Below are positions 10,554 through 42,046 of a stretch of 64,000 bases of DNA, piece by piece. The notes below the pieces were generated by a model. The model was given only the letters and a program-made list of their open reading frames with translations, had not been told where the DNA came from and searched no databases. How positions within the stretch are numbered: position 1 is the first letter of the stretch; each line of letters begins with the position of its first letter. Source of the stretch: a virus; IMG/VR virus record IMGVR_UViG_3300032236_000548, positions 1 to 64,000 of that record; one strand, given 5' to 3'. The position numbers were made by a program, and so were the translations under genes.

Positions 10554-11063
10554 ATGATTAGAAAACATGCGTATTTTTCAGAGTTTGCTAGTATAATAGA
10601 CGAGTGCAAAATATTACTTAATACTGTACCTTTTCAAAACAATATCAATCAGTTAGCCCTGCAAGTAAGCGATCCTGCTATAGAAGATTGGTATGAATCT
10701 TGTGGAAGAGTACATAAAGTAGGGATTACACTATCTGAAGAAAATTACAAATATATTAACCCGCCCTTAAAAGGCAGTGCTATAGAAGCATGGTTAAACT
10801 CTTTAGAAGTTCCAGTGTTCAGGGCACGACTGATGCTAATACCAGGCAGAACATGCTACAGCGTACATAAAGACGCACAGCCCAGAATACATCTCCCTGT
10901 AGTTACAAACGACCAGAACTATATGTGCTTTCCTGATTTAGGAATTATGGAGTATTTGCCAGCTACCGGAGACAGCTATTGGGTTGATACTATACAGCGC
11001 CATACCTTTGTTAATTGTTCGGCTCAGGATCGCATACATCTAGTAGCTTGTGTTGATAATTAA
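10554..11063 (+). CDS. Aspartyl/asparaginyl beta-hydroxylase-like 2OG oxygenase
   Basis: 169 residues. The C-terminal half carries the metal site: HKD in CYSVHKDAQPR (HxD), the distal His in IQRHTFVN, and the Arg in DRIHLVACVD that binds 2-oxoglutarate. RIHLPV right after the HxD motif is typical of the Asp/Asn beta-hydroxylase cupin group. The N-terminal half is not assigned. It probably hydroxylates a side chain of a host or phage protein. A TAAATA motif sits 4 nt before the ATG, suggesting a leaderless late transcript. Confidence 0.75.
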   Translation: MIRKHAYFSEFASIIDECKILLNTVPFQNNINQLALQVSDPAIEDWYESCGRVHKVGITLSEENYKYINPPLKGSAIEAWLNSLEVPVFRARLMLIPGRTCYSVHKDAQPRIHLPVVTNDQNYMCFPDLGIMEYLPATGDSYWVDTIQRHTFVNCSAQDRIHLVACVDN

Positions 11064-11078
11064 ATGTAAGGAGACTGT

Positions 11079-11336
11079 ATGTTTAACATAAAAACTAAAT
11101 TTGAAGAACGAATTCCACGTTCTGTTGCTAAGGTAATTACTTGGCGTATTCTAGTAACAATTACTAACTTTTTCGGCGGCTGGATTGCCAGCGGTAATCC
11201 GTGGGTTGGCTTAGGCGTTGTTAGTTTTGCTCTAGTAGTTAATAGCATAATTTACTTCTTCCACGAACGTGCTTGGAATTCAAGTGACTGGGGTAAAGAA
11301 ATAACCGAAATTGAAGGTTCCCAAACAGCTAAATAA
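11079..11336 (+). CDS. DUF2061 family small membrane protein
   Basis: 85 residues with the DUF2061 signature: ERIPRSVAKVITWRI at the N terminus, two membrane segments (about 25-42 and 47-62) and a C-terminal FHERAWN..WG motif. The family is widespread in bacteria and phages and has no established function. It has an AAGGAG ribosome site. It is followed by a hairpin and the DctP-like gene, so they may be linked functionally at the membrane. Confidence 0.85.
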   Translation: MFNIKTKFEERIPRSVAKVITWRILVTITNFFGGWIASGNPWVGLGVVSFALVVNSIIYFFHERAWNSSDWGKEITEIEGSQTAK

Positions 11337-11389: not shown

Positions 11390-12334
11390 ATGAATAAAAA
11401 ACATGTAAAATGGGTACTAGCACACGAACCAATCGAATTGTTTATTCGTGCCGCTAAAGTATTTGCTGACGAAGTAAATGCTCGCGCACCAGAACAGTTA
11501 GAAATCGAAGTTATGACTATGAGCGAATACGCTGAAAAGTATAACAACGGTGTTGTAGTTGATAAGCATAGTTTAGTAGATTTACTAGATTCAGGCGCAA
11601 TTCAAATGAGCCAAACTTATACAATTACATTAGGTAAGATCAATAAAGACTTCTATGCTTTAGATTTACCATTCTTGTTCAAAGACCATGATCACGCAAG
11701 CCGTGTATTTGAAGGCGAAGTTGGCGCTAGTTTGTTAGACAGCTTACAAGAGTCAAAGAAAGTAAAAGGATTGGCATTCACATATAGTGGTGGATTCCGT
11801 ATTATCCCTGGTAACGAAACAGTTGCTAAGATTGAAGACTTACGCGGTATGAAGATGCGTACAAGTTTCAGCCCAGTAGCTATTGAAACATTCAAGACAC
11901 TAGGTGCTGATGTAGTTCCAATGGAACTAGAAGAATTATCAGACAATCTAGGTTCAGCTAATGTTGCAGTTGGCGAAAGCACATATCCACGTGTTTATGC
12001 TTTAGGACATGATAAAGTTTCTAAAGTTATCAATCACACAGAGCATAGCTTGTTCCTAACAAGTATCTTAATTGGTACTGACTTCTGGAATACACTAAGC
12101 CCAGAACTACAAACTGTAGTTGCTGAGAGTGCCAAGACAGCCGCACGTCATGAGCGTACACTAAGCATCGAAGACATTGCTCTAGTACAAGCTCGTGCAG
12201 AAGCAGATGGTATCGAAGTTGTTAAGATGAGTGCTGAAGAGCAAGCTCGTTTTGCAGAAGCTACTAAAGTTGTTTACTCTAAATTTGAAGATTACTTTAC
12301 TCCAGGTTTAGTAGAACAAATCAAATCAAAATAA
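11390..12334 (+). CDS. TRAP transporter DctP-like solute-binding protein without signal peptide
   Basis: 314 residues matching the TRAP periplasmic receptor (DctP) fold: KVFADEVNAR, GAIQMSQ, ALDLPFLFKDHDHA, then IEDLRGMKMRT with the substrate-binding Arg region, FKTLGADVVPMELEEL, and GTDFWNTLSPELQ. The N terminus (MNKKHVKWVLAHEP) starts directly in the first strand and has no signal peptide, so the protein should stay in the cytoplasm. No TRAP membrane subunits are in the window. It may have become a cytosolic binder of an organic acid or a virion protein. It ends in a strong terminator. Confidence 0.82.
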   Translation: MNKKHVKWVLAHEPIELFIRAAKVFADEVNARAPEQLEIEVMTMSEYAEKYNNGVVVDKHSLVDLLDSGAIQMSQTYTITLGKINKDFYALDLPFLFKDHDHASRVFEGEVGASLLDSLQESKKVKGLAFTYSGGFRIIPGNETVAKIEDLRGMKMRTSFSPVAIETFKTLGADVVPMELEELSDNLGSANVAVGESTYPRVYALGHDKVSKVINHTEHSLFLTSILIGTDFWNTLSPELQTVVAESAKTAARHERTLSIEDIALVQARAEADGIEVVKMSAEEQARFAEATKVVYSKFEDYFTPGLVEQIKSK

Positions 12335-12347
12335 TTTTTGATTAATT

Positions 12348-12376
12348 AAAAAAGGACCTTTGGGTCCTTTTTTTTT
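12348..12376 (+). terminator. Rho-independent terminator
   Basis: A-rich stem ending GGACC, loop TTTG, GGTCC and a T-run to 12376. It separates the DctP-like gene from the biosynthetic operon. The core matches the terminator at 4973 (GGACC/GGTCC). Confidence 0.93.
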
Positions 12377-12395
12377 GGTGGTACACAGCATAGTG

Positions 12396-12401
12396 TAAAT
12401 A
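12396..12401 (+). promoter_or_regulatory. Late-type motif TAAATA before the ATP-grasp operon
   Basis: AGTGTAAATACAC lies 21 nt upstream of the ATG at 12423, which has an AAGGA ribosome site. It is the only promoter-like element found between the terminator and the ten-gene operon. Confidence 0.5.
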
Positions 12402-12422
12402 CACTTACATTTAAGGACCAGC

Positions 12423-13688
12423 ATGAACATCGGTGTACTATCCTCTGTATCTAGTTATCATCATTTGGCACAACTGTTTACAAACACTCCCGGAGTAGAC
12501 AACGTATTTCATTTTGGCGCAAATAAGGCTTTGTCCGAGACAGACATTTATCACCCACGCCCGATTGAAGTTCCAATGGAAGAACTTACGGACCATATGT
12601 CTAATAAAATTTCCTCATTACTTAAGACTGAAAAAATAGACTTCTTGCTAGCATCAGGAGTGCCTGTCGCATACAGTAGCGTTATACACAACAGTTTGAA
12701 AGAATCTAACATACCGTACTTCTTTCCATCAAAGGAACTAGTAAGATTGGAAGTAAACAAAAACGTCACAAAGGCTATGTTAAACAAAATTGGTATACCA
12801 AATAGTCCAGGAGAAATCTACGACGGAAGACAGTTATTTGCAAAATTTAAAAGTCTCCCAAGACCGTTTGTAGTAAAACTCAACTATGTATACCAGTACG
12901 GAAGACAAACATATATTGTCAACGATGAAAACTACGAAGAAGTATTTTTAGATTTATTCAGTGATAGGGCTGGGCTTGTACCACGGATAACAAATATTAA
13001 TAACGATACAAACATTACAGTTGAGAAATTTGTTAACCTTAAAAGAGAATACTCATATCATCTAGTAGCAAATGCTACTGGTTGGCAATACTTAGGGTCT
13101 GCCAGAGATTATAAAAAACTTGATGATGGAGATGTTGGATTCAATAGTGTAAGCATGGGTGCGTATAACGTAGACGACATAGATCCTCGAGTACACGAAT
13201 ACGCAGATAAAATTATCAATTATTTAAAAAACTACGGATATCCTTACAAAGGATTTATGTTTATAGGAATTGGCATAGACGAAGATGATGTGCCGATAGT
13301 TTTAGAAATAAACACAAGAAGTGGAGATCCCGAACTACAAGTAATTTTAGGATCTATAGAAAACAATCTTGCTGATTTATTTCTAGCGTGTAGCACTGAT
13401 GCTCGCATTCCAGATATTGTGCATAACAATAAAAAATCAGTAACTGTAAGATTAGTAAACACACATTATGATTGGAAGTGGCCTGCGTCCTTTTTACCTA
13501 AATTAAATCCGTGCCCTGATAATATCATCTGCGGATTAGAAGGAACAGAACGTTTTTATATTAAACATTCTGTAGTTACTACAAGCGATACTACACACGA
13601 GCAAGCAAGCAAGACCCTATACGACTACTTAGATAAGCAACAAGTAGGTCAGTATAGATATAGAAGAGATATAGGATTATTAAAATGA
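12423..13688 (+). CDS. PurD-like ATP-grasp carboxylate-amine ligase
   Basis: 421 residues. The fold is that of phosphoribosylamine-glycine ligase (PurD): a start MNIGVLSS in place of the usual GxGGREHAL, LEVNKNVTKAMLNKIGIP for the ATP-grasp entry, FVVKLNYVYQYG as the ATP lid, DYKK..DGD.G.NS.SMGAY at 229-248, YKGFMFIGIGI, and EINTRSGDPELQ with the metal ligands E295 and N297. PurD itself has TGGM where this has SVSM and lacks the phosphoribosylamine site seen in true PurD, so the substrate has probably changed. It likely makes an amide from an acyl phosphate. First gene of a coupled operon. Confidence 0.8.
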   Translation: MNIGVLSSVSSYHHLAQLFTNTPGVDNVFHFGANKALSETDIYHPRPIEVPMEELTDHMSNKISSLLKTEKIDFLLASGVPVAYSSVIHNSLKESNIPYFFPSKELVRLEVNKNVTKAMLNKIGIPNSPGEIYDGRQLFAKFKSLPRPFVVKLNYVYQYGRQTYIVNDENYEEVFLDLFSDRAGLVPRITNINNDTNITVEKFVNLKREYSYHLVANATGWQYLGSARDYKKLDDGDVGFNSVSMGAYNVDDIDPRVHEYADKIINYLKNYGYPYKGFMFIGIGIDEDDVPIVLEINTRSGDPELQVILGSIENNLADLFLACSTDARIPDIVHNNKKSVTVRLVNTHYDWKWPASFLPKLNPCPDNIICGLEGTERFYIKHSVVTTSDTTHEQASKTLYDYLDKQQVGQYRYRRDIGLLK

Positions 13689-14941
13689 TTGACGATTTAG
13701 GATACTATACAGTAGGCACAGAAAAGTTCTACGAAAAAATTCCTGCAATGTTTAAGGCACAGCAATTAAAACAAGAGATGCACTGGAATTTTAATGATAA
13801 AGAATTTTCGGCAATGGATTGGACTAAAGAACCTACTCAAAGTTTAGATGAGTTTTATGCTATTCGAGCAAGACAAATTCGAGAAGAATACGATTATGTA
13901 TTGTTGTTTTGTAGTGGCGGTGCAGATAGTACTAATATGTTCTATGCATTTGTAAACAACGGTCTGCATGTCGACGAAGTAGTAGGTAGTGCTCCATTAG
14001 AAGGTCTTAGAGATTGGAAATCAGATGCAACTAATCAAGACGTAACAAACACCATCGACGAAACATTCCATACACAAATTCCTTGGCTTGAAAAAATTAG
14101 AGTAGAGTATCCACAAATTAAAGTAACCCTCCATGATTACTTTGAAGACATGCTAGACTATAAAGCCGATGACTGGTTAATAAAAGGTAACGATTGGATG
14201 CATCCTACTATGGCAGGTAGATACAACCTAGACAAGTATTTGCATTTAAAACGTATTGCCGAATCGGGAAAAAGAATTGCTATTGTACAAGGTATTGATA
14301 AACCAAAAATTGCTAGATACAAAAATCAATTTGTTATCTTATTTGCCGACAACGTGTATAATAACAAATACGACTCTGTGAAGCATCCTAATACAAACCC
14401 AGTATTCTTTTATCATAGCCCACAGCTTCCAGAGATGATTGTAAAACAAGCGCACGTCACTGCTAGGTTTTTAATGCGCCCAGAAAATATAGAAATATAC
14501 AATGCCATGGTGCAAAACGATGAACGTTTTTTAAAACAACCTTTATCTGAATTGATGAACCCTCCAAACTATAGTGTATACGAACGTGGCATTGTTCCAG
14601 TAATATACCCAGCATTGAAAAAGTATTCGTTTCAGGCAGGTAAGCCAGATCGTATGTTTTTAGGAAAACATGATGCGTGGTTTTATAACCACCACTCAGG
14701 AACTAAGATATGGGAAATGATGCAAAGTGATTTATACAACCTTATAAAATCACTAGATCCAAAGTTTTTAAACTTTCATAAATTTAGAGGGCTATTAGGT
14801 TTTAGAACTTGGCGTAAGTATTACATACTTGGCCCAGTATCAAACTTTATACCTCAGGGTGAAGTTATTTTATCAGATGCTAAAGTATTAGACGATACAG
14901 CAAAAGCAGATTTAATCAAACAGATGGATGCAGAAGGTTAA
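13685..14941 (+). CDS. PP-loop ATPase, asparagine-synthetase-like (copy 1)
   Basis: 418 residues. The pyrophosphatase loop SGGADS is at 77-82 after VLLF, preceded by a 70-residue extension (DLGYYTVGTEKFYEKIP, DEFYAIRARQIREEYDY). A later block IVQGIDKPKIARYKNQ is shared with the next gene (IWGFDKPFLMFEKNK), so the two are paralogues. PP-loop enzymes adenylate a carboxylate or carbonyl oxygen for amidation or thiolation. No glutaminase domain is present, so nitrogen must come from ammonia or another amine. ATGA overlap with the ATP-grasp gene. Confidence 0.78.
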   Translation: MIDDLGYYTVGTEKFYEKIPAMFKAQQLKQEMHWNFNDKEFSAMDWTKEPTQSLDEFYAIRARQIREEYDYVLLFCSGGADSTNMFYAFVNNGLHVDEVVGSAPLEGLRDWKSDATNQDVTNTIDETFHTQIPWLEKIRVEYPQIKVTLHDYFEDMLDYKADDWLIKGNDWMHPTMAGRYNLDKYLHLKRIAESGKRIAIVQGIDKPKIARYKNQFVILFADNVYNNKYDSVKHPNTNPVFFYHSPQLPEMIVKQAHVTARFLMRPENIEIYNAMVQNDERFLKQPLSELMNPPNYSVYERGIVPVIYPALKKYSFQAGKPDRMFLGKHDAWFYNHHSGTKIWEMMQSDLYNLIKSLDPKFLNFHKFRGLLGFRTWRKYYILGPVSNFIPQGEVILSDAKVLDDTAKADLIKQMDAEG

Positions 14942-14943
14942 CA

Positions 14944-16161
14944 ATGTTTTTTGACGACGATTTAGAATTTACTAAACACGGATACTATCAGGTTGACGGA
15001 ATAAAAACTCTAAGCAAATTTGAAGCATTTAAATTTGCTGGTAATGATATGAGTAAAATTCAGTTTATATACAACGAAGATGTAATGTCACAGCAAGACT
15101 GGACTACAGAACCTTCGGAAGACATTTACGAACTATATGCTGAACGTGCTAGACAACTACGTCATAAGTACGACTACCTAGTATTGTTATACAGTGGAGG
15201 TATCGATAGTCATACAGTACTAAAATCTTTCCTGGACAACGATGTTCATTTAGATGAAATTTGTACCTTTACAAATGCAAAAATAGAAGCTAAGACTGGA
15301 AAGTTTAATCAAGAAGTTTTTAATGCCGCAGTACCATTTGTCAATACATTAGATCTTAATAAACTAAGAACTAAATTTAGATTGTTTGATATTAGCGATT
15401 TAATTATTAATCAATTCCAGGACGAGTTTCACTTTGAACATCATCATTTGTACAATCAAGGACCTGGTAACAATTGGAGTAGTGCAGTACGCTCGCATGT
15501 ATTAAAATCTAAAATACAAGATCATTTAACACTAACAGAGCAAGGAAAGAGTGTTTGCTATATCTGGGGTTTTGACAAACCATTCCTAATGTTTGAAAAG
15601 AACAAGTACTCTATACACTTTGTAGATAATGCTATCGATTTAAACATGCGTCAGTTTATCAATAGAAAAACACTTGTAAGTAAGTTTGCAAACTTCTACG
15701 ATGAGCCGTTTTATACTTGTAGAGAATTTCCTAAGATAGTAATTAAACAAGGACACCTATTGTTTAACTTGATTAAGACTATGGATAAAACTGACTTGAG
15801 ATTAAAATCACAAGATGAGATACCAACTACTGGTCCGTTCGTTATACATCATAGAGAAAAATACTATAGATTCTTGCCTAAGAAAATGGTAGACGGTACA
15901 ATCTATCCAAGAGCAAACTTGCTACAATTTGGAGATGACAAGACCAAAGGCAGTATTATTTTATCTGGAAAGGATAATTGGTTCAATCATTCTAATCACG
16001 ATAACCAGCGCCGATGGTATCAAAACTTAGATAATCTAATAAAACAAAATCAAGGGTTGTATCATTTTAAAAACAATAAAGTAATTGCTATTAACGGCAT
16101 ACGAAGTAAGCCTTACTTAATAGGCGAATACAATATGGTTAATTATGATAACCAAGAATAA
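14944..16161 (+). CDS. PP-loop ATPase (copy 2)
   Basis: 405 residues, paralogue of the preceding gene in its N-terminal extension (KHGYYQVDGIKTLSKFEAFK, DIYELYAERARQLRHKYDY) and in the GFDKP block. The PP loop is SGGIDS at 84-89. The C-terminal part is unlike asparagine synthetase. It starts 2 nt after the stop of copy 1 and is overlapped by copy 3. Having two copies of the long form suggests either a heteromer or successive steps on similar substrates. Confidence 0.78.
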   Translation: MFFDDDLEFTKHGYYQVDGIKTLSKFEAFKFAGNDMSKIQFIYNEDVMSQQDWTTEPSEDIYELYAERARQLRHKYDYLVLLYSGGIDSHTVLKSFLDNDVHLDEICTFTNAKIEAKTGKFNQEVFNAAVPFVNTLDLNKLRTKFRLFDISDLIINQFQDEFHFEHHHLYNQGPGNNWSSAVRSHVLKSKIQDHLTLTEQGKSVCYIWGFDKPFLMFEKNKYSIHFVDNAIDLNMRQFINRKTLVSKFANFYDEPFYTCREFPKIVIKQGHLLFNLIKTMDKTDLRLKSQDEIPTTGPFVIHHREKYYRFLPKKMVDGTIYPRANLLQFGDDKTKGSIILSGKDNWFNHSNHDNQRRWYQNLDNLIKQNQGLYHFKNNKVIAINGIRSKPYLIGEYNMVNYDNQE

Positions 16162-16972
16162 CTGGATACAGTCTACTACATTAAATCTGCGTGACAGCAA
16201 TCCTATTGCTGATTTTATATTGACTATAAATTTATATCCATTTAAAAAAATAGACTTCGATTCTGCTGTTGAAATAACTGTTAAAGAAATAGGTCATAAT
16301 TATTCAAATTTATATTTGGCGCTTAGTGGAGGGTATGACTCCGAATTCTTATTGCGATCATTTCATAAATTTAATGTAGATGTAACACCTATTATTGTTT
16401 GCTACAACAATGATGCAGAAACAAAATATGCATTTGAAGTTTGCGATGAGTTGAATATAACGCCTGTAAAGATTGTGCTAACTGACGATCAGTTTTTAAC
16501 ATATTTGAATGAAAAAATATCTAAGAAATTTAACGGCTCAGGATATAATTTTACCCATGTGCTGTTTGCGGCAGATTATTCTAGACAGCATAACGGCACA
16601 CTGTTGACTGGGAATCATCTAATCGGTGATAGCACTGATATAATAACCGATGACAATTTTGCCAGCTTAAACGAATGGGATTTTTACTTAGATCATACCC
16701 ACCCAGATTTGAATCATATTGATGTATTCTTATACACACTAGAATTAGCTTGTTCTATGCTTCCTGCTGATAACGGATTGACCTGGCAAGAATATAAACA
16801 CAAATTATTTAATGTGAAACAGAGAGATAAAGCAAGGCCCACATATTCTACTGAGGTAATTTCGCAAATCAAATCAATACTTGGTGCGAAAGAAGATTAC
16901 AAACACGTACAAGTGCATGAATGGACCCGTGCAGAATTTAATAAAACCTTTAAAGAGTTTCTTACAACATGA
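16145..16972 (+). CDS. PP-loop ATPase, short form (copy 3)
   Basis: 275 residues with SGGYDS at 61-66 following LYLAL. Then VDVTPIIVCYN and a helix (AFEVCDELNITPVKIVL), typical of the Rossmann-like PP-loop core. LLTGNHLIGD is the second nucleotide-site loop. It lacks the long N-terminal extension of copies 1 and 2. It overlaps copy 2 by 17 nt and copy 4 by an ATGA. The substrate is unknown. Confidence 0.75.
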   Translation: MITKNNWIQSTTLNLRDSNPIADFILTINLYPFKKIDFDSAVEITVKEIGHNYSNLYLALSGGYDSEFLLRSFHKFNVDVTPIIVCYNNDAETKYAFEVCDELNITPVKIVLTDDQFLTYLNEKISKKFNGSGYNFTHVLFAADYSRQHNGTLLTGNHLIGDSTDIITDDNFASLNEWDFYLDHTHPDLNHIDVFLYTLELACSMLPADNGLTWQEYKHKLFNVKQRDKARPTYSTEVISQIKSILGAKEDYKHVQVHEWTRAEFNKTFKEFLTT

Positions 16973-17871
16973 TACCAAGACTTAAAAATAGTTTTATACG
17001 GCCAGTTGGTACTGGGGAATCTTGGCGACTAGAGATCGATCCTCTTCCTACACGGTTTGAAAATTATTTTAAAGAGTCGTGTAATGCGGCAGTGGAGATA
17101 AATGATCTCAAAGAAGGACCTCTCCATCTAATGTATAGCGGAGGTATCGATAGTGAGTATGCGTTAAATATATTTTTACACATGGGCATAGATATTACTC
17201 CGGTGATTGTTAGACTACTTCCTGATTACAATAACCACGATATCGATTATGCTTTTAAATTTTGTCAACAGCACAATTTAGAACCTATAGTTATAGATAT
17301 AAACTTTGATGAATTTGTTACATCTGGAAAAATGACAGATATTAATCAACTTGTAAAATCTAGCGTCATAGGTAGAGCAACGACATGTTATGCTATGGAT
17401 TTCGTCGACGGCAGTATTATATGCTGTGAAGGTGACCCACATACGATTAAATACCCCGGAACAGAAGATTGGTATTTTATGGCGGCACAAGATGACTACA
17501 CTTTTGAAAATTACATGAATGCAAAAGGTATAGACGGCACTTCCTTCTTTAACGGTTATACTCCCGAAATGGTTTCTGCGTTTCTAGTAGATCCTATAAT
17601 GCGAGATTTAGCTGATAATAAGATTCCAGGAAAACTTGGAAATAAGTCTAGCAAAAATATAATTTATACAAGAGATAGTAATTTTGAAATGGAAACTAGA
17701 CCCAAGTATAACGGATACGAAAAAATACTAAACAGTGAAATTATTAAGCACCCTGCTTTTGCTAAGGTATACTTTCACCACAAAGATTATAAACAATTCG
17801 AAAAAGAACGTCTTGACATCCACGGCCAATTTTTTGTAAAATACTACGATCTCATAAAGGATTTAATATGA
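16969..17871 (+). CDS. PP-loop ATPase, short form (copy 4)
   Basis: 300 residues, SGGIDS at 57-62 after LHLMY. Closely related to the gene at 19126: both begin MIP..KN..IR..G, have EID, a YSGGIDSEYAL core, ITPVI.RL, and the C-terminal GKLG..SSK and YE.I..SEI..HP.FA blocks. The pair flanks the SpeD-like and Rieske genes. This arrangement looks like a tandem duplication split by, or built around, those two genes. ATGA overlap with its neighbours. Confidence 0.77.
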   Translation: MIPRLKNSFIRPVGTGESWRLEIDPLPTRFENYFKESCNAAVEINDLKEGPLHLMYSGGIDSEYALNIFLHMGIDITPVIVRLLPDYNNHDIDYAFKFCQQHNLEPIVIDINFDEFVTSGKMTDINQLVKSSVIGRATTCYAMDFVDGSIICCEGDPHTIKYPGTEDWYFMAAQDDYTFENYMNAKGIDGTSFFNGYTPEMVSAFLVDPIMRDLADNKIPGKLGNKSSKNIIYTRDSNFEMETRPKYNGYEKILNSEIIKHPAFAKVYFHHKDYKQFEKERLDIHGQFFVKYYDLIKDLI

Positions 17872-18242
17872 AAGAAAAATATTGGGGATACCATTTGATG
17901 TTGGATTGCGGCGGATGTAACATCAACGCAATGACCAATAAAGATGTTGTTAAAGAATTTGTAAAAGTACTAGTAGAAGCTATCGATATGGTAGCTGTAG
18001 GCGAACCTTGGATCGAACGTACTGCTATAGGTATGCCCGATAAAGAAGGATTTAGCTTGTATCAACTGATAGTTACAAGTAATATCTCTGCACATTTTGT
18101 AGATGAACCCAAACAAATTTATCTCGATGTATTCAGTTGCAAAGAGTTTGATGAAGCTGTGGTAAAAGATGTAGTTAACACTTATTTCAAACCAACAAAA
18201 ATTAACACTAGATTTATAACTAGAGACGCATCCGATGTTTAA
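17868..18242 (+). CDS. S-adenosylmethionine decarboxylase (SpeD)-like pyruvoyl enzyme
   Basis: 124 residues, the size of prokaryotic class 1B AdoMet decarboxylase. GYHLMLDCGGCN at the start matches HL-LDLYGCN. The core G.S..QLI.TSNISAHF matches G.S...LI.ESHISIHT. The self-cleavage Ser is S71, followed by His76 (+5) and Cys91 (+20). The spacing is the same as Ser63, His68 and Cys83 in the Thermotoga enzyme. The residue before the Ser is Thr instead of Glu, and SH is SN. Homologues with changed active sites are known to decarboxylate arginine or ornithine, so the substrate is open. It could supply an amine to the ligases of this operon. Confidence 0.78.
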   Translation: MKEKYWGYHLMLDCGGCNINAMTNKDVVKEFVKVLVEAIDMVAVGEPWIERTAIGMPDKEGFSLYQLIVTSNISAHFVDEPKQIYLDVFSCKEFDEAVVKDVVNTYFKPTKINTRFITRDASDV

Positions 18243-19122
18243 TAATCCGCCAAATATCTACGCACACGTTTCTGCTTTAAAGAACGGTCACTTCGTAACT
18301 GAAGATCAACTCATCCTTAACAACAATGGAGAATACTCTATAAAAAGTAGAGAGTGTCCGCATCGTGGTTATCTTATTCAGGAACCCGGTGACGTGGTAA
18401 AAACTGTAGTCTGCAAACTACATGGGTTTGCATGGGATAGTGAAGGTAAACCTTTAGATAATGCCGCTGAGCCTTGCCGTAATCATTTTTACAAACTACA
18501 TCACCACGGTCCTTTAGAACTAGGCAAAACAGGTTTGCTATTTCAAAATTTTAAAGAACTACCCGACTCCGAATGGGTACAAGAACTAAGCAAGATAACC
18601 GATCTCGAATTTGATAGAACAGTTGTCGGTGAAAGCAAGGGAAGCTGGCTATGGATGATGGAGCAACTAACTGATGTAATTCATCTTAGACAAAACGGAA
18701 TACACCCTAGACAAAGTTTAGAAACACCGTTAGATGGGGATCACATAGAGCAATTCCTAGAAGAAGGATGCTCTGTACAAAAGAATACGAACATCAACGG
18801 AACTAAAGGATTCTGGGTGTTTATATATCCCGGATACGGAGTTGAGTTTGAGCCAGGTAAGTTGCTCATTACCCGATTAGTGCCAAACGATATCAATGAA
18901 GAATTTGGATTCCGTTGGGAATTACAAACTTACTATTCTCCATGGGTAGATAAAAATGAAAGAGAAGAATGGGAAAAGAGTATTGAAGTATACTACGAAG
19001 ATATCCATGCTATTGAAAAAATCAAACGACCGTATTTTCCATTAAAGCGAATGGTTAACCAGTATGAAGAACAAATGCATCACTGGGGGCAGTGGTACAA
19101 GGATAATCTTAAAAAAGATTAA
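18235..19122 (+). CDS. Rieske non-heme iron oxygenase-like protein
   Basis: 295 residues. N-terminal Rieske [2Fe-2S] domain with C41-P-H43 and C60-K-L-H63 (C-x-H-x16-C-x2-H). The catalytic domain has a non-heme iron motif with D147..H150 and H157 (TDVIH...GIH) and a C-terminal YYEDIHAIEKI helix that supplies the Asp ligand. Such enzymes hydroxylate, desaturate or demethylate small molecules and need a reductase, which is not in the window. It overlaps the SpeD-like gene by 8 nt. Phage Rieske oxygenases in a biosynthetic setting are unusual. Confidence 0.85.
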   Translation: MFNNPPNIYAHVSALKNGHFVTEDQLILNNNGEYSIKSRECPHRGYLIQEPGDVVKTVVCKLHGFAWDSEGKPLDNAAEPCRNHFYKLHHHGPLELGKTGLLFQNFKELPDSEWVQELSKITDLEFDRTVVGESKGSWLWMMEQLTDVIHLRQNGIHPRQSLETPLDGDHIEQFLEEGCSVQKNTNINGTKGFWVFIYPGYGVEFEPGKLLITRLVPNDINEEFGFRWELQTYYSPWVDKNEREEWEKSIEVYYEDIHAIEKIKRPYFPLKRMVNQYEEQMHHWGQWYKDNLKKD

Positions 19123-19125
19123 TTA

Positions 19126-19995
19126 ATGATTCCTTTATCAAAAAATAACTATATACGGACACGCGGGTTTGGGGATAATTTTAAAGTTGAAATAGATCCT
19201 GTGATATCTGCCGACAACTATTATAATGAAAGTGTACTAGCGGCAGAAGAAATATACAGTCTTAAAGAAGGCCAAATGTATGTTATGTACAGTGGCGGAA
19301 TCGATAGTGAATACGCCCTTAGTGTATTCTTAGAATTAGGCATGGCAATAACTCCTGTTATTATAAGACTAGGCAATTACAACGAGCACGATATAAAGTA
19401 TGCTATGGATTTTTGCCATGCAAAAAACATAACTCCTAAGATTATCAACTTTGACTTTGACGAGTTTGTTAAGAGTGAAAAAATATTAGATGTGGCTTTA
19501 GAATCTCGCTCAATGCTATACCATCGTCCAGCTACCGCCTATGTTGCAAGTCAACTTGATGGAACTATCTTGTTAGGTGACGGCGAGCCGTATATTCGGT
19601 TAAACAAAAATACAAACACTTGGAACTTAGAAATAGACGAACACGATTTTGCAGTGTGCAACTATCTTGTTGCTAAAGGTATTCCATGTGTTCCTCACTT
19701 TAATAGATACCGCCCAGGCATGATGTCGTCTTATATGTTAGATCCTAGAATGCAAGAACTTGCAGAGCATAAGCATCCAGGCAAATTAGGATCCAACTCT
19801 AGCAAAGCATACATGTATAATCGTACTAGTCCTTTTAAATTAGAATCACGACAAAAGTACACAGGATACGAAATTATAGAAGAAAGCGAAATCTTTAAAC
19901 ATCCAGTGTTTGCTCAAATGGAAGACCAATGCAAGAAGTACAATGGATTAGTAGCTATTGACTACCACACATTTATAAAAGATTATATACAATGA
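19126..19995 (+). CDS. PP-loop ATPase, short form (copy 5)
   Basis: 289 residues with SGGIDS at 56-61 after MYVMY. Paralogue of the gene at 16969 over its whole length, including ITPVIIRL, FDFDEFV, LLGDGEPYI and the C-terminal GKLGSNSSKAYMYNR block. It starts 3 nt after the Rieske stop and overlaps the next gene by ATGA. It may act as a heteromer with copy 4. Confidence 0.77.
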   Translation: MIPLSKNNYIRTRGFGDNFKVEIDPVISADNYYNESVLAAEEIYSLKEGQMYVMYSGGIDSEYALSVFLELGMAITPVIIRLGNYNEHDIKYAMDFCHAKNITPKIINFDFDEFVKSEKILDVALESRSMLYHRPATAYVASQLDGTILLGDGEPYIRLNKNTNTWNLEIDEHDFAVCNYLVAKGIPCVPHFNRYRPGMMSSYMLDPRMQELAEHKHPGKLGSNSSKAYMYNRTSPFKLESRQKYTGYEIIEESEIFKHPVFAQMEDQCKKYNGLVAIDYHTFIKDYIQ

Positions 19996-20531
19996 GAGTT
20001 ATAACTTGGCGTCCAGGAACTGAGCCTGCATATGATAAAATCTTTGAAGAGCTAAGGGCCGAGCATTATGCTGATCATAGTCACAGATTGTGGAAGAACT
20101 ATTCTAAAGAAGCGTTCAAGGAAGTAGCTGTACTATCGATTTACTTTGATGAAGATAATGTTCCAGAAGTATGCTCGAGTGCGGTTCAACGTAGTTGTTG
20201 GCCGCAGGGTGCTTACCGTATACACAACCGTGTATGGAAATGCAACAACAAGAAACAGTTCTTACGCAAAGTTAGTCCTAGCATGGGTTATACTGCTCGT
20301 AGCCAAATTGAATGGCTCAAAGCAAATACAGACTTCAAACTGTATTTTATCAGTCGACAAACAGACAATTGGAATGACTGGATGATAGAACACTTCAAAG
20401 AATATGGTATAGAGTTCAAAACAGATAACTACATGTATCTAACATGTCCCAACGAATGCGATGATACTTGCTGGCAACGTATCATATACTCGGGCGATGA
20501 ATCGTTGTTAGAACAATGGAAGCGTAGATGA
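19992..20531 (+). CDS. Unknown protein in the biosynthetic operon
   Basis: 179 residues. Pieces such as MRVITWRPGTEPAYDKIFEEL, VLSIYFDEDNVPEVCSSAV and LYFISRQTDNWNDWMIEHF have an acyltransferase-like alpha/beta rhythm, but no GNAT acetyl-CoA loop is evident. The end contains CPNECDDTCW, a possible metal or disulfide site. Coupled on both sides by ATGA overlaps, so it is almost certainly part of the same pathway. The function is not recognised. Confidence 0.7.
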   Translation: MRVITWRPGTEPAYDKIFEELRAEHYADHSHRLWKNYSKEAFKEVAVLSIYFDEDNVPEVCSSAVQRSCWPQGAYRIHNRVWKCNNKKQFLRKVSPSMGYTARSQIEWLKANTDFKLYFISRQTDNWNDWMIEHFKEYGIEFKTDNYMYLTCPNECDDTCWQRIIYSGDESLLEQWKRR

Positions 20532-21310
20532 AAAATATTTTCAATGTTAATAGATTAAAGAACCTGCAGATCCTAACAATATCTGCATACTTGATTACGG
20601 CGGTATCTTTACCTATTATACAATTTAGTTGGAGCATGTTTGCCTTAACTATTTTAATGTACTTTCTTATATTTGGATTTGGAGTAAGTCTTACATTCCA
20701 TAGAAGCATTACTCATAGAGCAGTAGATATGCATCCTGTACTAGAACTACTGGGTAAGTTCTTTGCCAGTGTTGGCGGAACAGGAAGTCCTATTAGCTGG
20801 GTTTTAGTACACAAGGCTCACCACAAGCATTCGGACACCGATCGAGATCCGCATAGTGCTAGAGATGTATTAAAATATGTAATTGGCAAATACCCAAAAG
20901 TTAGTACACAAGGCATGCGCCGATTAGCTCAAAGTAAATTTAACAAGTTCATACATAAGCATTACTATCTAGTAATCTTTACGTACGGTGCAATTTGGGC
21001 AATGTTAGGAATTGATTACTTTTGCTACGGGTTTATCTACCCAATGGTTTTGAACATGGTTGCTGGCCATCTTGTAAACTGGTACACACATTCTGAGTAT
21101 TTTTCAAATTATCGATTGCACGATACTAAAGACACTAGCCAAAATAATTTATTAATTGGATTAGTTACTTGGGGAGAAGGATTTCATAACACCCATCACA
21201 AGTATCCAGGTAGAGCTAATTTTGGTGTAAAGTTTTGGGAAGTCGATGCTACTTATGCACTTACCAAAATACTGGCAAAGCTCAAACTAGTTAAGATACG
21301 GTTGACTTAA
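20528..21310 (+). CDS. Fatty-acid (acyl-lipid/acyl-CoA) desaturase
   Basis: 260 residues with the three His boxes of membrane di-iron desaturases: HRSITH, HKAHH and HNTHH. Four hydrophobic segments (about 16-33, 37-57, 148-166 and 171-191) match the usual topology. SPISWVLVHKAHH and GEGFHNTHHKYP are close to delta-9 desaturases. It would introduce a double bond into host acyl chains, changing membrane fluidity, or act on an acyl group made by the operon. Desaturases are known in aquatic T4-like phages. Last gene of the operon, ATGA overlap with the previous gene. Confidence 0.93.
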   Translation: MKNIFNVNRLKNLQILTISAYLITAVSLPIIQFSWSMFALTILMYFLIFGFGVSLTFHRSITHRAVDMHPVLELLGKFFASVGGTGSPISWVLVHKAHHKHSDTDRDPHSARDVLKYVIGKYPKVSTQGMRRLAQSKFNKFIHKHYYLVIFTYGAIWAMLGIDYFCYGFIYPMVLNMVAGHLVNWYTHSEYFSNYRLHDTKDTSQNNLLIGLVTWGEGFHNTHHKYPGRANFGVKFWEVDATYALTKILAKLKLVKIRLT

Positions 21311-21336: not shown

Positions 21337-21436
21337 GTGGACGTGAGTGGAACTTGGTATACCTCCTCCCTTCGGGGAGGGTACGGGGCTTGGTCTTAGA
21401 CTGCCTTTGTAGGTTCGAATCCTACCGTCCGCACCA
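21337..21436 (+). tRNA. Atypical tRNA-like gene (100 nt), possibly Leu- or Arg-type
   Basis: The ends are canonical: acceptor GTGGACG (21337-21343) with CGTCCGC (21426-21432), discriminator A, encoded CCA, and T arm GTAGG-TTCGAAT-CCTAC. The D region has the Leu-like TGGAACTTGGTA. The middle is abnormal. Where the anticodon arm should be is a 7-bp hairpin closed by a TTCG tetraloop (21364-21381). A Leu-like CTTAGAC (21395-21401) lies in what would be the variable region and lacks a matching 5' stem. Read as a 7-nt loop with one mismatch, the hairpin would give TCG (Arg). It may be a tRNA mimic, a decayed class II tRNA or one with re-ordered arms. Confidence 0.6.
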
Positions 21437-34417: not shown

Positions 34418-35677
34418 ATGATGGATAAAAAAGATACTATATGTGCAATACCGTGGATGCACTTAAATTTCGAACCCAACGGTAAGGTAGTTCCTTGTTG
34501 TTTAACCAGTCACCACAATTATTTTGCAGGTGACTTAAACACACAAACTATTGATGAGATTTGGAATAGCGACAACATGAAATCGTTGCGTAAGCAAATG
34601 ATTAATGGCGAGCGTCCAAAGATTTGTGATACTTGTTGGAACAAAGAAGATGTCACAGGAGTAAGTGGACGGTTTTATCAAAACAGAGACTTTCCAGATG
34701 TTCTTAAAAAGATCCCTGACATTACATTAGAAGACGGTACTTGTACTGAGATGGAGCTCAAGTATTGGGACTTCCGTTTTAGTAACTTGTGTAATTATAA
34801 ATGTCGCAGTTGCGGTCCACGCTATAGTTCTGCATGGGTGCCTGATGCTAAAAAGCTCGGCTACACCGACCAAGAAAAAGTATGGAATATCGAAGCAGTT
34901 GAGAACAAAGCAAACGTCGACTTCCTAGAGGATCAGATAGACACTGTTCGTAGAATTTATTTTGCCGGTGGCGAACCCTTACTCATGGACGAGCACTGGC
35001 AGATACTTGACAAACTAGTAGAACGTAAACGTTTTGATGTTAAGTTAAGTTACAATACTAATGTTAGCACACTAACCTATGGTAAGAAGAATGTAGTTGA
35101 CTATTGGAAACAATGGCAATTAGGTAAACTAGAAGTATGGCCTAGTATTGACGAAATTGGTGAACGTGCTGAATTGATACGCAGTGGTACAGTCTGGAGT
35201 AAAGTAGAAGAAAACTTGAAAGAACTTGCCAAGTACGATAATATCATCTTGCGTCCTGGTATGACTATCGGTGCATGGAACGTTCGTAGACTTCCTACCA
35301 TTATCACATACTTGACCGACTTAGGAGTAGTTCGCCGCCATCCTGAAATTTATCAGTATGTTAACTATAATAATTTCTTTATAAACTTACTAGATCATCC
35401 TAGACATTACCATGTGGGTATTTTACCAGATGGCTACAAAAATGAAACTATCAAAGAGCTAGAAGCATTTGCCGAAGAATACAATAAAAAGTATAATACA
35501 GATATAAGTTCAGTCTTCACACAAATAATACACGAGCTTAAACAGCCTCATGATCCAGAAGCGGCTAAACGATTCTTACATACTACAAAACGTGTAGACG
35601 ATATCAGAGATGAGAAATTCTTTGATGTTGTTCCTGAACTTGCTATCATAAGAGATATGTACCCAGGAGTGTACTAA
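34418..35677 (+). CDS. Radical SAM enzyme with SPASM-like cluster region (A)
   Basis: 419 residues. An N-terminal SPASM-type segment (CAIPWMHLNFEPNGKVVPCC, then C.TCWNKE) precedes the radical SAM core, a circular arrangement seen in phage members. The core is CNYKCRSC (CxxxCxxC) followed by IYFAGGEPLLM (GGE motif for SAM). Such twitch/SPASM enzymes modify peptides or small metabolites. It starts a coupled four-gene cassette with another radical SAM protein. The substrate is unknown. No precursor peptide is evident nearby. Confidence 0.85.
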   Translation: MMDKKDTICAIPWMHLNFEPNGKVVPCCLTSHHNYFAGDLNTQTIDEIWNSDNMKSLRKQMINGERPKICDTCWNKEDVTGVSGRFYQNRDFPDVLKKIPDITLEDGTCTEMELKYWDFRFSNLCNYKCRSCGPRYSSAWVPDAKKLGYTDQEKVWNIEAVENKANVDFLEDQIDTVRRIYFAGGEPLLMDEHWQILDKLVERKRFDVKLSYNTNVSTLTYGKKNVVDYWKQWQLGKLEVWPSIDEIGERAELIRSGTVWSKVEENLKELAKYDNIILRPGMTIGAWNVRRLPTIITYLTDLGVVRRHPEIYQYVNYNNFFINLLDHPRHYHVGILPDGYKNETIKELEAFAEEYNKKYNTDISSVFTQIIHELKQPHDPEAAKRFLHTTKRVDDIRDEKFFDVVPELAIIRDMYPGVY

Positions 35678-35678
35678 T

Positions 35679-36611
35679 ATGAGTACCATTGCTGTATTTG
35701 AAATGATGGATAAGAATCGAACTCCATATGCATTAACGTTCAACTTATACAACTCATCACTGGCCAAACGCTGGCAAGCAATGGTAGAACAAAATGTACA
35801 AGCTCAGCACGAGATTTACGCAAGTTTTATTAACCTTACTTACGACAGGCTTCCTGAAGTATTAGAAGAGCTTAATGAAATGGTTGCTATAATTAATCGC
35901 AACTATGATAAAAAGTTACCCGAGTTTATTAGCACAGAAATTTTAGATCAGCAAATCTTAAATGACTTGCATGAAGAGTACGAAGTGTACGGCGGTAGAA
36001 TCGATCAATTCGAATCTAAAAAATTACACGCAAGTTTTTTAAGATTAAACGAATTGATTCATGCTTGTGAAGAAATGACTGCAACCAAGGATAAGAAGTT
36101 TATCCCCATGAGTGCGCTAATCGACTATTACCCACAGGGCATACACGAGCCTTTGAAGGATCAGGATAAAGTATACCTAACTACAGACTTCAATTGGGGC
36201 AAGTTGTATCTAGGGTATAACACCTTAGGAAAAGATTGGTTAGAAGTGCAACGTCATAACGACTTAGATGTTATACTGAGAAATCAAGTTCGTAAGCAAG
36301 AAAGATTTGCCGCCGAATGTTGGTTAAACTTTACACAAGACGATACGTGTAAGTGGAATGCAACTCAGTTTGAAAAGTGGTATGATAAGTTATCTCCCGA
36401 GATACAAGCACAAGTTCCCGTAGACGACATGTCTGCGCTGGCATTAGGCAGATATGAAATTGGAACACTAGAGATTACAGAAAATTTCTTAGAATACCAC
36501 AATAACAAATCTGATTGGTTAGTTCCAGAACATCCGATAAAAGCAAAGTGGAACAAAGAAGTGTTTTCCACATTTAAAATAGTCAAGAGCATTAAGTTCA
36601 TAAATGTCTAA
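35679..36611 (+). CDS. Unknown protein between two radical SAM genes
   Basis: 310 residues, starts 1 nt after radical SAM A and overlaps radical SAM B by 8 nt. Mostly helical: EIYASFINLTYDRLPEVLEELN, EILDQQILNDLHEEYEVYGG, FLRLNELIHACEE, then a beta-rich end with LGRYEIGTLEITENFLEYH. The close coupling and conserved position make it a likely substrate-binding or scaffold partner. No family recognised. Confidence 0.65.
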   Translation: MSTIAVFEMMDKNRTPYALTFNLYNSSLAKRWQAMVEQNVQAQHEIYASFINLTYDRLPEVLEELNEMVAIINRNYDKKLPEFISTEILDQQILNDLHEEYEVYGGRIDQFESKKLHASFLRLNELIHACEEMTATKDKKFIPMSALIDYYPQGIHEPLKDQDKVYLTTDFNWGKLYLGYNTLGKDWLEVQRHNDLDVILRNQVRKQERFAAECWLNFTQDDTCKWNATQFEKWYDKLSPEIQAQVPVDDMSALALGRYEIGTLEITENFLEYHNNKSDWLVPEHPIKAKWNKEVFSTFKIVKSIKFINV

Positions 36612-37533
36612 AATTATAGAAATAAAACAGCACACTCCTGACTTATATTTGACTTGGGTCATTAATAATATATGCACCAACAAATGTAGTTACTGCCCAC
36701 CTAACCTACACAACGGTACTAACCATAACTACGAATGGGAACAGGCTGAAGCATTTATACAAGAGTTACTTAAACGCTATCCTAAAATACAACTAGCTAT
36801 CAGCGGTGGCGAACCAACACTAAGTCCATTTCTTAAAGACATGGTTAAAATGTTTAGTGATGCTGGGCATCCAGTAGGCATGACTACAAACGGTGCTAGA
36901 ACTGTAAGATACTTTGAAGAAATTTCTCAGTATATGAGCTACATTGTTATGAGCTACCATCCAAGTTTTGAAGACCCTGAGTTGTTAGAAAAGGCATTAG
37001 CCTGCGCCCAACATACAAAAACAACTGTAGCTGTTATGATGGATAGTAGACATTTTGATCAAAGTCTAGCAATGTATTATAAATTACGTACATATGATGT
37101 GTTACAAGTAGAGCCTTGGAGAATTACTCCTTGGATTAAAAATAATACAGTAGGATGCGACTACACTGAAGATCAGCTACGGATACTTAGTTCATTATCA
37201 ACCAAAGAAATGAATAACCCAGTTGTGCCAAAAAATGAAGGAACAATGGGTGCAACCTTTTATTTCGAAGATGGATCTGAGCAAAACAGTAACGCACAAG
37301 ATTTAATTAATGAAAAGCTCACTAACTTTTATGGTTGGGAGTGTGACATCGGACTTAATAGTTTATATGTAAGGTTAGACGGCGGAGTACGGTTGGGTAA
37401 CTGTATTAGCTCTAGCTACATAGGAAATATACAAAATTATAAAGATATACAATGGCCGACAAAATCGTTTATATGTCCGCAGACATTCTGCCATTGCACA
37501 ACTGACGTATACGTATCAAAGAGACCAGTATGA
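36604..37533 (+). CDS. Radical SAM enzyme (B)
   Basis: 309 residues. Radical SAM motif CTNKCSYC at about 19-26, GGEPTLS for SAM binding, TTNGAR next. A C-terminal Cys set (WECDIGL, GNCISS, CPQTFCHC) can hold a second Fe-S cluster, as in SPASM or twitch proteins. It has the fold of peptide- or sugar-modifying enzymes rather than QueE. It overlaps the gene before and after it. With enzyme A it probably acts on one product in sequence. Confidence 0.85.
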   Translation: MSKIIEIKQHTPDLYLTWVINNICTNKCSYCPPNLHNGTNHNYEWEQAEAFIQELLKRYPKIQLAISGGEPTLSPFLKDMVKMFSDAGHPVGMTTNGARTVRYFEEISQYMSYIVMSYHPSFEDPELLEKALACAQHTKTTVAVMMDSRHFDQSLAMYYKLRTYDVLQVEPWRITPWIKNNTVGCDYTEDQLRILSSLSTKEMNNPVVPKNEGTMGATFYFEDGSEQNSNAQDLINEKLTNFYGWECDIGLNSLYVRLDGGVRLGNCISSSYIGNIQNYKDIQWPTKSFICPQTFCHCTTDVYVSKRPV

Positions 37534-41539: not shown

Positions 41540-42046
41540 ATGGCAAATTTACAACCGGTTGCTTACAAATATCAAAGCACAAAAGAATATGTAGACGCAT
41601 TTCCATGCGCCTATAGACAGTGGAGGGCAGATAGCCACTGTAATTTGATCCATGGATATGCTTTTAGCATGAAGTTCTATTTTGGGACTAACGACTTAGA
41701 CGTTCGTAATTGGGCGGCTGATTACGGTGGATTAAAAGAACTCAAAAGTATGCTAGAAGATCAATTTGATCACACTTTATTGGTAAGTGAAGATGATCCA
41801 GAATTGGCTACTTACAAACTGCTACAAGAAAAGAAATTGGCTAAACTAACTATCCTACCTCGTTTAGGATGCGAAGGTTTAGCAGACATGCTGTACAAGT
41901 ATGTAAACGGTGTTTACATTCCAGACATGTGGGGACAAGGCGAAGCCGATCGCTTATGGTGCTACCGTGTGGAAGTTAGAGAAACTCAAAGTAATATGGC
42001 ATTTAGAGAAGGGCACCGCGAGTGGAATGAGGATCTTCTTTCGTAA
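41540..42046 (+). CDS. QueD/6-pyruvoyl-tetrahydropterin-synthase-like protein
   Basis: 168 residues of the PTPS fold: C34-N-L-I-H38-G-Y40 matches the C-x3-HGH motif but with Tyr in place of the last His; then MKFYFG, DYGGLKELK (the usual DF..LK), QFDHTLLV (the catalytic DH) and CEGLAD (the catalytic Glu). The N-terminal zinc His is not found, so only one of three zinc ligands remains clear. Either it uses another metal set or it has lost pterin synthase activity. QueD normally makes a deazaguanine precursor. The gene is under a sigma70-type promoter. Confidence 0.75.
   Translation: MANLQPVAYKYQSTKEYVDAFPCAYRQWRADSHCNLIHGYAFSMKFYFGTNDLDVRNWAADYGGLKELKSMLEDQFDHTLLVSEDDPELATYKLLQEKKLAKLTILPRLGCEGLADMLYKYVNGVYIPDMWGQGEADRLWCYRVEVRETQSNMAFREGHREWNEDLLS

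Follow-up and report, generated by a model that had tools for sequence, protein, structure and literature searches.

What might a virus make with five PP-loop ATPases, an ATP-grasp ligase, a SpeD homologue, a Rieske oxygenase and a membrane desaturase? The question is raised by a run of ten genes in the IMG/VR virus record IMGVR_UViG_3300032236_000548, whose positions 1 to 64,000 were analysed here (the window; the record itself has 104,655 bases and is possibly incomplete). The operon is real, conserved and not ordinary, and it matches no known pathway among the material searched. Tentatively, and at somewhat less than an even chance, we read the ten genes as a single operon for a virus-only pathway to an acyl-derived amide or aminolipid. 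Within it, carboxylate activation would fall to the PP-loop and ATP-grasp enzymes, and tailoring of the chain to the desaturase and Rieske oxygenase.

Gene packing and recurrence in uncultured phages

Ten open reading frames (ORFs) are packed on the + strand between positions 12423 and 21310 in the order g1 to g10: a PurD-like ATP-grasp ligase, two PP-loop ATPases of a family termed PPb, two of a family termed PPd, the SpeD homologue, the Rieske oxygenase, a third PPd protein, a protein of family c14 and the desaturase [Table 1]. The ORF coordinates confirm an earlier note on this DNA, which described genes that overlap or almost touch: the junctions from g1 to g10 measure -4, +2, -17, -4, -4, -8, +3, -4 and -4 bases. 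Catalytic motifs are intact across the operon enzymes, and in every gene the differences that separate it from its nearest relatives fall mainly at third codon positions, so that g1 to g10 are under constraint. Reading and folding likewise bear out the terminator that the note placed upstream, a hairpin with a GGACC/GGUCC stem followed by a U run (minimum free energy -15.7 kcal/mol, z -3.2), which a consensus terminator scanner did not pick up. The single promoter-like motif that it proposed found no support, sigma-70-like sites being no more frequent than in shuffled sequence (51 observed versus 49 +/- 8) and absent from the leader at 12374-12422. The idea of a T4-like late promoter was also dropped, as TATAAATA occurs once in the window versus 6.8 expected. 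Directly past the operon, ARAGORN predicts a 100-base tRNA-Arg at 21337-21436 that scores below the Rfam gathering threshold.

Scans of IMG/VR with several baits yielded about 200 loci. The first co-occurrence set comprised 123 non-redundant loci found via PPb, PPd or Rieske genes and was compared with within-locus gene-order shuffles, which ignore shared ancestry, so that the counts are not independent events. PurD-like genes lie directly beside PPb in 4 of 5 cases (shuffle mean 0.4, maximum 3), TctC/DctP-type solute-binding protein genes directly beside PPb in 52 of 91 (mean 11.4, maximum 22) and Rieske genes directly beside PPd in 20 of 28 (mean 3.5, maximum 10). Because these loci had been found through PPb, PPd or Rieske, the test was redone with other baits. 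Among 46 loci recovered with c14, a desaturase gene is adjacent in 29 (mean 5.5, maximum 13) and AcpS in 8 (mean 1.0, maximum 6), while PPd, Rieske and acyl-carrier protein (ACP) genes fall within three genes in 29 (mean 8.6, maximum 18), 12 (mean 3.2, maximum 8) and 12 (mean 3.9, maximum 9), respectively. The TctC bait found PPb in the same cluster in 8/8 loci, 3 of them new, and the PurD-like bait found PPb adjacent in 7/11, two of the seven looking near-duplicate. Three modules thus recur: PurD-like with PPb and TctC; Rieske with PPd; and PPd with c14 and desaturase, often accompanied by phage-encoded ACP, the phosphopantetheinyl transferase AcpS that activates it, ketoacyl synthase (KAS) and dehydratase. 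Since different baits recover the same modules, the ten-gene set is not a chance pile-up.

The nearest neighbours of the window set are loci L005, L104 and L004 (Rieske 39-73%, SpeD 72-75%, c14 62-74%). In L090, L091, L096, L097, L099 and others, PPd, usually with Rieske, is followed by genes for a FabA-like dehydratase, an ACP and a KAS, and the c14-desaturase pair has AcpS and a second ACP as its neighbours, these AcpS, ACP, KAS and FabA-like identities being assigned by Pfam. In L004, three desaturase genes have AcpS- and ACP-like genes next to them, one ACP scoring above the Pfam cut-off. The proposal of the earlier note that the genes serve one biosynthetic pathway, which was to fail if related phages carried them scattered and independent, is supported by this recurrence; its interpretation as a whole holds in part, having overlooked the links to acyl-carrier and fatty-acid-synthase genes, to solute-binding proteins and to 7-deazaguanine genes.

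Table 1. Features of the window discussed in the text (pLDDT, predicted local distance difference test; 2OG, 2-oxoglutarate).
Feature	Position	Strand	Basis
Asp/Asn-hydroxylase-like 2OG oxygenase	10554..11063	+	54% to gene beside same cluster in L004
DUF2061 membrane protein, recurrent neighbour of PPb	11079..11336	+	neighbourhood
DctP-type solute-binding protein without signal peptide, outside the ten-gene run, before the terminator	11390..12334	+	sequence comparison
Intrinsic terminator-like hairpin and U run, between DctP gene and g1	12348..12373	+	reading and folding
g1, PurD-like ATP-grasp ligase, PurD substrate motifs gone	12423..13688	+	Pfam GARS_A 7.6e-15
g2, PP-loop ATPase, family PPb, SGGADS	13685..14941	+	71% to L076 gene likewise behind a PurD-like gene
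g3, PP-loop ATPase, family PPb, SGGIDS	14944..16161	+	AlphaFold pLDDT 92.4
g4, PP-loop ATPase, family PPd clade II	16145..16972	+	PPd tree
g5, PP-loop ATPase, family PPd clade I	16969..17871	+	PPd tree
g6, SpeD homologue	17868..18242	+	Pfam AdoMet_dc 3.6e-16; cofactor Ser71, His76, Cys91
g7, Rieske non-haem iron oxygenase, CxH..CxxH and D147/H150/H157/D256	18235..19122	+	Pfam Rieske 7.1e-8
g8, PP-loop ATPase, family PPd clade I	19126..19995	+	AlphaFold pLDDT 95.7, PPd tree
g9, family c14, possibly GNAT-like acyltransferase, pairs with desaturase genes	19992..20531	+	profile comparison, gene company
g10, membrane fatty-acid desaturase, three His boxes (58, 95, 220)	20528..21310	+	Pfam FA_desaturase 5.4e-15
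QueD homologue	41540-42046

Enzymes of the operon

g1 has the full-length ATP-grasp GARS architecture, its family profile aligning over positions 1-423 with 2yw2 (E 8e-43, 150.6 bits). It is homologous to PurD, the phosphoribosylamine-glycine ligase, over its whole length and retains RxGDPE, but lacks the GGREH and GPE substrate motifs (GNGGREH aligns with lssvssy and GPEAP with sglpv), as the altered substrate residues of the earlier note implied, and scores 111.5 bits versus an NCBIfam PurD equivalog cut-off of 288. When INPHARED was searched by tblastn with g1, the matches were all ordinary PurD-like sequences with less than 60% identity, and many lay in unannotated fragments.

All five PP-loop proteins keep SGGxDS (5/5), and Pfam matches them weakly or, for g3, not at all. 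They form two families, one of 400 residues (PPb: g2, g3) and one of about 290 (PPd: g4, g5, g8). The two subfamilies noticed earlier therefore stand as families and split further, as a tree of 93 PPd proteins separates two clades at full support (100/100), with g5 and g8 in clade I and g4 apart from them in clade II. Alongside g5 and g8, clade I holds all members linked to KAS, ACP or FabZ and nearly all those linked to c14 or desaturase; clade II holds g4, the PPb-linked members and, in other phages, members near FolE, QueD and QueE. In the AlphaFold models of g3 and g8, both of high confidence, the PP-loop core is the only part that matches solved enzymes (template-modelling (TM) score to query <=0.44), namely LarE, beta-lactam synthetase, GMP synthetase, nitrile synthetase, asparagine synthetase, NadE, TtuA, MnmA and TilS. 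Every match of the window proteins to NadE, AsnB, LarE, TilS and other named PP-loop families is far below the family cut-off, and searching PDB sequences with the PPb profile turned up only noise. Identity with QueC was rejected: g5 and g8 score 12.6-14.1 bits versus a cut-off of 150.3, and no C-terminal Cys cluster is visible by eye. The operon proteins have the SGGxDS core and the ATP-binding fold in common with amide-forming PP-loop enzymes (NadE, asparagine synthetase B, beta-lactam/carbapenam synthetase, nitrile synthetase ArtA and QueC), but differ from them in that the core alone aligns, no glutaminase domain is recognised and an operon carries multiple paralogues. Amide formation on a carboxylate, as put forward in the earlier note, is plausible from the predicted fold only.

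The pyruvoyl serine S71, the catalytic H76 and C91 of g6 are invariant among its phage homologues. SpeD homologues of uncultured freshwater phages (Caudovirales) have been found to be pyruvoyl ornithine decarboxylases (PMC9992855), a group marked by Gln, Thr, Phe and Tyr residues (PMC10407285). The four residues are present in g6 as Q66, T70, F77 and Y85 and are kept in all nine phage homologues aligned; this mapping is ours, the source paper (PMC10407285) giving the order of the residues and no numbers. Two proteins served as controls. In the proven S-adenosylmethionine (AdoMet) decarboxylase of phage phiN3 the Thr is replaced by Asp, whereas the Gln, Phe and Tyr are missing from a homologue of a pelagiphage, which belongs to a group with demonstrated arginine decarboxylase activity. 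The residue test and the phiN3 control led us to set aside a plain AdoMet decarboxylase; g6 also falls below the NCBIfam equivalog cut-off for that enzyme (36.1 bits versus 75.65), and a PDB search with the SpeD profile gave no matches. As it carries the residues of the ornithine decarboxylase group, g6 is probably a pyruvoyl ornithine decarboxylase with putrescine as its likely product, which makes more specific the earlier suggestion of an amine from a SpeD-like enzyme (PMC10407285, PMC9992855). It is like the characterized phage enzymes, termed SpeDC, in size, in the cofactor Ser, His and Cys and in the order of the four diagnostic residues (PMC9992855, PMC10407285); unlike them, it sits inside a multi-enzyme operon and is known here from sequence.

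The Rieske motif of g7 (C41 H43 C60 H63) and its mononuclear iron site (D147 H150 H157 D256) are invariant in 20 sequences. Its best solved relatives are the carnitine monooxygenase CntA and SxtT/SxtDIOX (profile matches 8e-18 and 1.5e-14), with which it shares both metal sites, but at about 295 residues it fits no named-family model. g10 has the His boxes HRSITH, HKAHH and HNTHH and an acyl-CoA desaturase as its nearest solved relative; it scores 100.7 bits versus an NCBIfam DesA equivalog cut-off of 400. The c14 profile matches phage GNAT clusters at 80-91% probability, and one such cluster has a Pfam GNAT hit. g9 and its relatives are possibly GNAT-like acyltransferases, which we treat as a lead; a PDB search with c14 found nothing. 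Acyl-ACP-dependent N-acyltransferase systems include the N-acyl amino acid synthase that works with an ACP and the ornithine-lipid enzyme OlsB. Relatives of the window resemble these in having the acyltransferase-like c14 beside ACP, AcpS and acyl-modifying enzymes, but the likeness of c14 comes through gene company.

Neighbouring genes and distribution

The DctP-type gene upstream of the terminator and about 30 relatives (in L076, L088, L019, L033 and others) begin at the mature domain (KWVLAHEP...). Even when translation is taken from the first available start, they lack a signal peptide, while the adjacent TctC proteins retain theirs; given that no start codon yields a signal peptide, the DctP proteins are probably cytoplasmic. 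Between the window and L076, DctP identity reaches 95%, versus 53-71% for the adjoining genes. In phages L018, L021, L031 and L036, genes for TctA-type permeases, the membrane part of a carboxylate transporter, adjoin PPb and point to real import. In another phage contig, a cytochrome P450 gene (PF00067, 3.4e-18; L231:2853-3983) lies between PP-loop and TctC genes. Further 2OG-Fe(II) oxygenase genes are found at positions 781-1329 and 2424-2996 of the window, and many related phages have several of these near the PP-loop cluster. Elsewhere in the window, two radical SAM genes, one with a SPASM domain, surround a 310-residue protein without a Pfam hit (34418-37533), and one ORF of 4655 residues (44725-58692) has weak matches to phage structural families.

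No match to PPb, PPd or c14 was obtained in 50,697 isolate-phage records (INPHARED, tblastn with g2, g3, g5 and g9). A scan of about 85,000 species genomes from bacteria and archaea found PPb in four contigs, three that look chromosomal in Bacteriovoracales and one short, virus-like contig. The PPb-like gene of Bacteriovoracales (L165, L166, L167) is single and near a conserved housekeeping block; it is a possible cellular relative of the phage family. A Rieske scan of bacterial genomes found none, and in 274 genomes from a single bacterial class the only c14 match was a marginal fragment (E 8e-4, one stop). Because these genome scans rely on short peptide patterns, they may overlook distant members. 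A separate single-protein scan with g5 had no matches. The literature offered no clear precedent for phage clusters of Rieske, PP-loop and ACP genes, subscription papers and preprints having been mostly outside the search.

A candidate pathway and its rivals

We infer every reaction, the product and the role in infection from this material. The most likely product would be a desaturated, hydroxylated fatty-acyl amide or aminolipid. The enzymes encoded by g1 to g4 (Module A) would activate carboxylates and link them to nitrogen, via the acyl-phosphate and acyl-adenylate chemistry of the ATP-grasp and PP-loop superfamilies; in many relatives this module is coupled to TctC-type periplasmic carboxylate-binding proteins, which may bring the carboxylate in. 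Those of g5 to g10 (Module B), comprising the clade I PP-loop proteins, the Rieske oxygenase, the membrane desaturase and c14, would work on a fatty-acyl chain that c14 would transfer, while g6 would turn ornithine into putrescine, the likely amine partner. The window phage, whose record has no acyl-carrier genes, might use host acyl-ACP or acyl-lipid. During infection the product could alter the envelope of the infected cell, exclude other phages or act as a diffusible compound. Several observations weigh against this pathway. No ACP, AcpS, KAS or FabZ gene was found in the window's own record; the acyltransferase role of c14 is unproven, g9 itself having no Pfam hit and its family only the profile matches to phage GNAT clusters; the core-only fold matches of g3 and g8 include the sulfur transferases LarE and TtuA besides amide-forming enzymes; the leaderless DctP relatives mean that not every solute-binding protein here can serve import; and clade II PP-loop, Rieske and SpeD genes also occur within FolE/QueD/QueE clusters.

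The last point underlies the main rival, which we consider unlikely: a hypermodified nucleobase, derived from 7-deazaguanine, in the phage DNA. The PP-loop enzymes would then amidate or conjugate a 7-carboxyl or 7-cyano group, the SpeD product would be the amine, and oxidation of the side chain would be the task of the Rieske and other oxygenases. Phage clusters for 7-deazaguanine DNA modification contain FolE, QueD, QueE, QueC and DpdA. In six loci (L146, L151, L157, L159, L161, L162), clade II PPd genes have FolE on one side and QueD/QueE on the other, accompanied by Rieske in L159 and L162 and also by SpeD in L159, where the genes run FolE, two small genes, Rieske, SpeD, PPd, Rieske, PPd, FA_hydroxylase, PPd, QueD, one gene and QueE. 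It is this adjacency, together with the QueD homologue of the window, that keeps a modified base as the main rival, and the same record holds k92 and k109 genes, companions of FolE/QueD clusters in other phages. Against it, the 104,655-base record yielded no gene for FolE, QueE or a QueC-like protein, g5 and g8 are far under the QueC cut-off, and the membrane desaturase and acyl-carrier genes have no obvious role in a base pathway. The k92 product (568 residues; record 99592-101298, L223:4092-5798) had been considered a DpdA-like transglycosylase by motif only, and Pfam, PHROGs, NCBIfam and PDB transglycosylase searches gave that assignment no support.

Less probable again is a decoration of the cell surface or membrane, in which lipid A, ornithine-type lipids or phospholipids of the infected cell would receive acyl or aminoacyl groups that block other phages or stabilise the cell. 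Consistent with it, the cluster is accompanied by membrane desaturases, sometimes several of them, and by oxygenases of the FA_hydroxylase and Asp/Asn-hydroxylase-like types, two families whose lipid hydroxylases have lipid A and ornithine lipids as substrates; yet no lipid A or glycerolipid acyltransferase is recognised in the operon, and we know of no PP-loop or PurD-like enzymes in lipid-decoration pathways. We think it improbable that the locus is a cargo hotspot where unrelated metabolic genes with separate functions were gathered and co-transcribed: gene content does differ among relatives, and desaturase, radical SAM and 2OG-oxygenase genes also occur apart from PP-loop genes, but specific pairs recur far above gene-order shuffles, with independent baits and with overlapping start and stop codons. 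A role of the PP-loop proteins in tRNA modification or sulfur transfer (TilS-, MnmA-, TtuA- or LarE-like), with oxygenases finishing the tRNA modification, appears very improbable; all four enzymes are among the fold matches and the phage has tRNA genes, but every family score is below its cut-off, no RNA-binding domain is recognised and the acyl-carrier link would be left unexplained.

Phages usually borrow single metabolic genes from their hosts, whereas here linked modules recur in many uncultured phages, some with acyl-carrier machinery. If the linked genes do make one product, phages would be running a dedicated biosynthesis of their own, and it would become possible to test what purpose the abundant oxygenase, desaturase and PP-loop genes of environmental phages serve. 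It is possible, though the chances seem rather against it, that uncultured phages own a natural-product-like pathway that evolved in viruses and does not occur in cells. Such a pathway would combine acyl-carrier machinery of its own and paralogous PP-loop ligases with tailoring by Rieske and desaturase enzymes and dedicated carboxylate uptake, and would yield a compound or lipid unknown in cells.

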